From: Strix aluco
Taxonomy: Eukaryota > Chordata > Aves > Strigiformes > Strigidae
Assembly: GCF_031877795.1 (NCBI RefSeq)
Contig: NC_133970.1
Coordinates: 45,173,538 to 45,237,537, forward strand
Length of the DNA stretch: 64,000 nucleotides
Reading direction: 5' to 3'
This document shows, one piece after another, positions 22,216-22,604 of the stretch (the stretch's first letter is position 1; every line of letters begins with the position of its first letter). Both the position numbers and the translations under genes were made by a program. Under the pieces are notes generated by a model, which was not told the DNA's origin, did not search any database, and was given only the letters and a program-made list of their open reading frames with translations.

Positions 22216-22347
22216 CAGCTGCGCCTGCAAGACTTGTTTCAAAGCTTTATCAATTAAGGTTTGGGCAGACTTCAAAAATCACAGCATACTTAAAATAGTT
22301 CCACAGAAGGCTAGAAACAATACAGCAATTACAGTCACTAGTTGAAA
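22216..22347 (-). pseudogene. env: Remnant env transmembrane anchor and cytoplasmic tail (provirus C)
   Basis: Minus-strand frame from 22347: FQLVTVIAVLFLAFCGTILS is a membrane span. A TGA follows at 22279-22281, then an open tail (KSAQTLIDKALKQVLQAQL) running through the polypurine tract into the LTR. Provirus A ends its env the same way (membrane span, stop, tail, PPT), which supports the call. The frame is offset by one base from the LDL-A frame directly upstream, with which it overlaps by about 9 bp. Confidence 0.75.
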
Positions 22348-22604
22348 AGAGTAGGACAGTCTTTTTCACCATCACATTTCCAGGACACTGGGATACACTG
22401 GGTTGACTGAGGACCACAGCTGATTTCATTTACCCGGCATGTTCTCATATGGCACAGTTCAGCACTCTCGTCAGACCCACCCTCGCAGTCCGGATCCCCA
22501 TCACACTGCCATCTGTTAGGCACACACTGACCACTGATGCACACAAAATCAGATTCAGCACACGTCTTCTTCACACAAGCACTCTCATCACTGCCATAAA
22601 GCAT
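22338..22604 (-). CDS. Captured LDL-receptor class A repeats (VLDLR-like), intronless fragment
   Basis: An 88-codon minus-strand frame encodes the end of one LDL-A repeat (GSDESAC), one complete repeat with six cysteines, and most of a third with five. In the complete repeat (about residues 15-51) the calcium site is present: WQCDGDPDC followed by GGSDES. The third repeat stops after CDGEKDC, before its acidic SDE motif and last cysteine, and runs into the env anchor region with a TAG. The order and linker sequences (ACVKKTCAES, LCHMRTCRVN) look like repeats 1-3 of the very-low-density lipoprotein receptor. Receptor genes of this family normally have introns between these repeats; none is seen, so the segment looks copied from mRNA. 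It occupies the env position of provirus C. The frame stays open about 45 codons upstream without an ATG. The ATG at 22604 may not be a real start. Confidence 0.8.
   Translation of the reverse strand: MLYGSDESACVKKTCAESDFVCISGQCVPNRWQCDGDPDCEGGSDESAELCHMRTCRVNEISCGPQSTQCIPVSWKCDGEKDCPTLFN

Follow-up and report, generated by a model that had tools for sequence, protein, structure and literature searches.

How did part of a lipoprotein receptor come to lie inside an endogenous retrovirus (ERV)? The question is raised by a minus-strand frame at 22338-22604 in a 64,000-nucleotide stretch of Strix aluco contig NC_133970.1 (hereafter the window, to which all positions refer). The frame encodes repeats of the low-density lipoprotein receptor class A (LDL-A) type and is located inside a provirus, between pol and the 3′ long terminal repeat (LTR) and on the same strand. 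A first-pass annotation of the window had proposed that an mRNA-derived piece of a VLDLR-like receptor was transduced into the env position. Our results agree with this proposal: the piece resembles VLDLR, contains no introns, and is preceded by the same join in three other owl proteins. We consider it probable, with good confidence, that a class II ERV acquired the piece by recombination with spliced mRNA of owl VLDLR.

The frame is composed of 88 codons and a stop (22338-22340), and PF00057 of Pfam matches two stretches of it (E 1.8e-21). As described in the first-pass annotation, it contains one complete six-cysteine repeat, the end of the preceding repeat, and the next repeat with five of its six cysteines, and the calcium-site letters CDGDPDC...SDES are present. 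Among solved structures, human VLDLR gives a gap-free alignment, its residues 34-114 pairing with residues 4-84 of the frame, with 65 of 81 residues identical (counted from the printed alignment). For single stretches, the frame scores 139.5 bits against VLDLR and 50.3 bits against the best printed stretch of LRP2; scores summed over stretches put LRP2, with its many repeats, at 489 bits, ahead of VLDLR (241) and LDLR (about 152). In the LA1-LA2-LA3 order and in the linkers, too, the captured piece resembles VLDLR more than it does other LDL-A proteins. The VLDLR-derived segment proper spans 22356-22595 (minus strand; 80 codons) and comprises the end of repeat 1, the complete repeat 2 (22452-22562), and repeat 3 to its fifth cysteine. 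Among the matches listed, this 80-residue block is identical at 78 of 80 positions to VLDLR of the little owl (Athene cunicularia, P0127) and to a VLDLR-like protein of Mergus (P0148), and at 77 to frogmouth and parrot VLDLR. The suspected likeness to VLDLR is therefore clear. The first three residues of the frame (MLY) and the last five (PTLFN) are not from VLDLR. The motif GSDESAC at the upstream end was also considered as non-VLDLR sequence, human VLDLR having GSDEKNC, but was rejected as such, for owl VLDLR (P0235 and P0237) reads GSDESAC.

The exon limits of VLDLR were taken from bird genomic protein fragments and an Athene gene model, not from the VLDLR gene of the host itself. Genomic frames P0010, P0011, and P0013 delimit exon 3 (...SFSLA|VKKTC...AELC|RK), and P0017-P0019 give the end of exon 4 (...NCG|K). 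In addition, the little-owl gene model P0142 runs from the intron into VKKTC. The segment crosses both the exon 2/3 join (~22574/22573, minus strand; placed by the genomic exon fragments and P0142) and the exon 3/4 join (~22451/22450, minus strand; placed by the genomic exon fragments) uninterrupted. The introns have thus left no trace at the two mapped joins, in accordance with the intron-less linkers reported before, and the segment is best read as processed host VLDLR mRNA.

A protein search gave 18 matches, three of which are named as owls: P0003 and P0004 of Bubo scandiacus and P0009 of Otus sunia. The non-VLDLR residues SHMLY precede the receptor piece in all three, and P0003 and P0009 present the longer leader C[AT]ILYLPYFV[AT]LSHMLYG. 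As the three proteins share SHMLY, the join was not created by an error in a single assembly, and the assembly chimera considered in the first-pass annotation is ruled out. Two of the relatives have further residues like those of the provirus: the start of P0003, MNFLNISPVSQ, is identical to the window integrase (MNFLNISPASQ) at 10 of 11 positions, and P0009 carries 21 residues of the LTR-like segment upstream of the leader, 18 of them identical. P0003 has lost a cysteine of repeat 2. The upstream join is therefore seen in the window and three owl proteins, and the downstream virus-host join in the window copy alone. A text search for the leader in 124 proteins, collected with the aid of a profile search (240 matches, the best 120 listed), gave no further protein with it. 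Scanning viral contigs with the window LDL-A frame matched nothing; scans with a duck VLDLR-like protein and with the integrase frame gave four stretches each, none of them a relative by tblastn.

The env region is a patchwork of integrase, a foreign LTR piece, a leader with a splice-acceptor-like stretch, VLDLR, and a hydrophobic frame, so that retroviral sequence lies on both sides of the receptor piece. The foreign piece, just upstream of the leader, was missing from the first-pass annotation. It occupies 22667-23060 (minus strand), is 75% identical to 44137-44524, and is partly retained in P0009; the latter window stretch overlaps a 93% repeat pair (38756-39086 and 43889-44226) that flanks a reverse transcriptase frame (40102-40626). 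We read the piece as part of an LTR of an ERV-L-like element, a class that we presume for it and for its relative. An env remnant had also been considered at 22667-23060, and was rejected on the match to 44137-44524. The leader (22596-22661, minus strand), which lies between the LTR-like segment and VLDLR and is common to the owl copies, has a pyrimidine-rich, splice-acceptor-like stretch, the hydrophobic run ILYLPYFVALS, and an in-frame ATG at 22604; it may have served as splice acceptor and signal peptide. Downstream of the receptor piece, a frame of 28 residues (22279-22365, minus strand) is a possible env membrane anchor, its best 19-mer being more hydrophobic than those of 998 of 1000 dinucleotide shuffles. 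It is out of phase with the LDL-A frame, so the frame offset and the stop at the join are as first described. The placement between integrase remnants on one side and the polypurine tract (22196-22209, minus strand, by inspection) and 3′ LTR on the other also stands, but the "env membrane span" of the first-pass annotation is only this hydrophobic frame, which has no detectable homology. Pfam detects no env in the env position of the provirus. As the putative anchor has no detectable homologue, it is the position of the VLDLR piece that suggests replacement of the env ectodomain.

The provirus itself lies on the minus strand. Its 3′ LTR (21793-22195; 403 bases, TG...CA) and 5′ LTR (28204-28893) match at their ends. 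The primer binding site at 28184-28201 was located by inspection and is presumably of the tRNA-Trp type. Between them lie an amino-terminal gag frame (27784-28065), 42-48% identical to three other window frames, and frames for dUTPase (26412-26771; PF00692, E 3.4e-13), reverse transcriptase (25129-25599; PF00078, E 4.3e-17), RNase H with the integrase zinc-binding domain (23762-24334; Pfam, RNase H E 6.1e-9), the integrase core (23388-23873; PF00665, E 3.2e-4, below the curated cut-off), and the integrase C-terminal DNA-binding domain (23212-23553; PF00552, E 7.7e-13). A dUTPase between gag and pol, together with the reverse transcriptase, integrase, LTRs, and primer site, points to a decayed class II (ERVK-like) provirus, a label that we take from these features and not from a reverse transcriptase tree. 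The alignable parts of the LTRs differ by a Kimura two-parameter distance of 0.042 over 274 bases. If neutral sites in birds change at about 2e-9 per site per year, this would correspond to a rough age of about 10 million years. Similar LTRs at 45699-46087 and 53188-53519 enclose no LDL-A frame detectable by tblastn.

To account for these features, we propose that a virus particle took up VLDLR mRNA together with the viral genome, the female germ line being the most plausible setting. While the minus strand was being made, reverse transcriptase would have jumped from the 3′ part of the viral RNA to exon 4 of the receptor mRNA, continued back through exon 3 as far as the end of exon 2, and then switched to another template. 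The fragment would thereby have been placed in the env position behind the splice-acceptor-like sequence, presumably with loss of env at capture, and the piece may at first have been translated. The new element would then have multiplied, giving copies in at least two owl genera. Bird VLDLR carries very-low-density lipoprotein (VLDL) and vitellogenin, the yolk precursors, into oocytes (PMC5004830). Its mRNA would presumably be available in female germ cells, from which a capture can be inherited.

Several observations weigh against this account. Part of the P0003 start was also aligned by tblastn, less well, to a frame (LNVSTPLSK) just upstream of the leader, and the owl relatives are known as gene models, some apparently spliced by annotation, with their LTRs, introns, and genomic places unseen. 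The "env anchor" fails to gain support, since its frame has neither a Pfam match at E<=1 nor a significant match to the neighbouring provirus; moreover, 24 of 1704 window stretches of 150 bases (both strands, its own region included) are as hydrophobic. No matching target-site duplication surrounds the two LTRs, and their middles do not match (~28303-28716 in the 5′ LTR), so the provirus may be recombinant and its age is rough. The missing duplication would also fit one event whose product was then copied by segmental duplication and common descent, with no spread by the element itself, and the other owl copies, known as protein models, leave room for this reading. Yet the two Bubo scandiacus proteins come from separate contigs, P0003 from one of 89.5 Mb (7 member sequences, 2 contigs) and P0004 from one of 2.1 Mb, and the window has related LTRs at other places; we regard such duplication as improbable. 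A processed VLDLR pseudogene made by a long interspersed nuclear element (LINE) and inserted into one provirus, which multiplied or was duplicated, would also be intron-free, and what we take to be a LINE-type reverse transcriptase frame lies elsewhere in the window. Against this, the segment has no poly(A) and no 3′ gene end, but consists of 240 internal bases that begin and end within exons, which makes a LINE origin very improbable. Capture of VLDLR mRNA by the retrovirus itself accordingly remains the reading that we prefer.

Is the owl element alone? A protein search with 211 matches of 212 candidates (best 120 listed) included, among the matches listed, "VLDLR-like" proteins of Anas platyrhynchos, A. 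acuta, Aythya fuligula, and Mergus octosetaceus and an "EGF-like domain" protein of Cairina moschata. Thirteen duck rows were retained (P0125, P0132, P0134, P0135, P0136, P0147, P0148, P0163, P0181, P0220, P0227, P0233, and P0234). The short models P0021 and P0039 were left out; they had been tried as host VLDLR and rejected for a leader like the retroviral ones, and owl and goose entries were therefore relied on as host VLDLR. The Mergus rows and the Aythya rows are dispersed over three different contigs each. A VLDLR-like signal peptide is recognizable by eye in 9 of the 13 models. In the nine models scanned, there are 7-9 LDL-A stretches, up to the whole LDL-A array, with a calcium-binding EGF match in three and a propeller in none. 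The receptor part runs on into a TWK..Y tail in 8 of the 13. This tail in P0233 matches avian gp85 (PF03708, E 1.9e-4, below the curated cut-off) and the neighbouring window provirus at 16955-17083 (E 4e-5); P0148, P0181, and P0220 give no gp85 match in Pfam. Some models contain further parts: Gag domains in P0233 (PF00607, E 4.4e-31), a retroviral protease in P0135 (PF00077, E 6.1e-12), a start 67% identical to the reverse transcriptase of another window provirus in P0163, and a tail resembling a cellular gene, presumably DCAF12-like, in P0136. Because gene models can join neighbours, the shared tail is the stronger sign of a retroviral setting. The duck elements are known from protein models; on this evidence, the duck genes annotated as "VLDLR-like" are probably retroviral.

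Two further observations concern the duck-type sequences. P0227 and P0233, from two Anas species, both have, upstream of their VLDLR part, a stretch of about 150 residues that resembles a coiled coil and has no solved relative at E<=0.01; it may be another piece of host origin or belong to an adjacent gene. In public metagenome data, P0005 (1472-base JGI contig) and P0006 (729-base ENA contig) encode VLDLR LA2-LA3 across the exon join and have KKMC in place of KKTC, as do duck copies P0132 and P0147. They are probably fragments of the duck-type element.

To ask whether ducks and owls share one capture, we consider a tree of the binding domain with 27 rows, which the owl copies are too short to enter. 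A single branch (94/80; recovered in 95% of 200 bootstrap trees) separates the 13 duck rows from all others, and they adjoin goose VLDLR (88/86), whereas four owl VLDLR rows from three species form their own group (100/99). As the duck rows group with goose and not owl VLDLR, there were probably at least two captures. The only informative site in the shared block, in LA2, is I in all four owl copies and in owl and crane VLDLR; it is N in goose, kiwi, and emu VLDLR and in 11 of the 13 duck rows (S in P0227, site missing from P0234). In addition, breakpoints and viral flanks differ between the duck and owl elements. A single ancient capture in a bird retrovirus, with the duck and owl elements related by descent or cross-species spread and the owl form a deletion derivative, would explain why the same receptor sits in the same env position in both groups. 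The 80-residue block of P0148 is also as near to the window as that of little-owl VLDLR (78/80), and one informative site is all that places the owl copies. Set against the tree, that site, and the unlike breakpoints and flanks, we hold a single capture to be unlikely, and find it very likely that bird retroviruses captured VLDLR two or more times. A stronger idea is that bird retroviruses at least twice independently, in owls and in ducks, exchanged the envelope surface for the ligand-binding part of VLDLR and that the recurrence is no chance. This is speculative, and we would not expect it to hold. If it were true, the captures would recur because VLDLR mRNA is available at the place where inherited copies originate, and because a vitellogenin- or VLDL-binding envelope could be carried into oocytes, and with them into the germ line, by the uptake of yolk.

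The captured domain may be, or have been, a working protein, such as a decoy receptor, a ligand-binding envelope, or a means of altered targeting, and ducks are where this would best be seen. When the 13 duck rows are set beside 14 host rows, cysteines that do not vary among the hosts are altered in 21 of 563 cells, as against 163 of 2152 for the remaining invariant positions (Fisher p 0.0009, ignoring shared ancestry); acidic host-invariant positions are changed in 20 of 627 cells and the remaining ones in 143 of 1525. Several duck genera retain long open frames, and most models keep the signal peptide. On the other side, the cells share ancestry and codons are outside the count, the window copy is broken, and P0003 is without one cysteine of repeat 2. 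The substitution pattern in ducks hints at constraint but proves nothing, and we treat a working protein as a tentative possibility, on balance doubtful. The window copy is dead: a stop lies at the join, the frames are offset, and the third repeat is without its sixth cysteine. We think that the owl fragment was mostly a passenger of an env-less element that copied itself intracellularly or depended on a helper.

Several different ERV types are found within these 64 kb, a density such as that of bird W chromosomes. The provirus at 5627-12021 is young and little damaged; its LTR copies (5627-6231 and 11417-12021) are 99.0% identical and enclose a 553-codon frame with no Pfam match and an open 1059-codon pol frame (reverse transcriptase, RNase H, and integrase). 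A class II provirus at 11974-17083 has long pol frames and an env remnant, the end of which is the stretch matched by the P0233 tail. An ERV-L-like provirus (38756-44524, minus strand) has the 93% repeat pair around its reverse transcriptase frame and provides, in its LTR-like stretch, the source type for the segment beside the VLDLR piece. An open 454-codon LINE-type reverse transcriptase frame, which we take to be CR1-like, lies at 41773-43134. Gammaretrovirus-like frames at 57348-63998 encode Gag p30 (E 1.3e-26), protease, and reverse transcriptase, followed by two more long frames, the second of which (62874-63998) extends to the window end and is not matched by Pfam.

No report of VLDLR captured by a retrovirus was found in searches of an open-access library, judged in part by the titles listed, subscription papers and preprint servers being outside that scope, and the term VLDLR was not found in the main text of a duck ERV survey (PMC11067759). 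Since the same receptor appears in owls and in ducks, and breakpoints and viral flanks are not the same in these two bird orders, the case is more than a curiosity and offers a pattern that can be tested, one that bears on which host mRNAs retroviruses take up in germ cells and on whether a captured receptor ectodomain is of benefit to an element. It is also a warning that duck "VLDLR-like" annotations should not be read as ordinary VLDLR paralogues.

Compared with the host VLDLR gene, the captured piece is alike in its 80 gap-free residues but is without the introns, the other repeats, the propeller, the membrane span, and the tail. The duck proteins (such as P0233, P0148, and P0181), which carry VLDLR-like or uncharacterized as their annotation, likewise have VLDLR LDL-A repeats in a retroviral setting, but differ in their larger array, frequent signal peptide, flanks, and grouping with goose. 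In acute transforming retroviruses, spliced host mRNA has recombined into a retrovirus in oncogene capture, usually at the cost of viral genes; here, by contrast, VLDLR is a lipoprotein and yolk receptor and no growth signal, and the element is endogenous and old. The closest comparison is with CrocERV31 of crocodilians, in which nectin3 host mRNA stands in place of env (Chong et al. 2014, PMC4299795). The passages of that paper that deal with such captures treat host mRNA capture at the expense of env as known and call it relatively uncommon. As far as those passages describe CrocERV31, the two cases share the mRNA of a cell-surface protein taken up (in the owl element, apparently) at the cost of env, several copies, and no intron. 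They differ in host gene and ERV class, and the nectin3 frames are whole and intact whereas the owl fragment is short and broken. Unlike nectin3 in CrocERV31, VLDLR has apparently been taken up in two bird orders.
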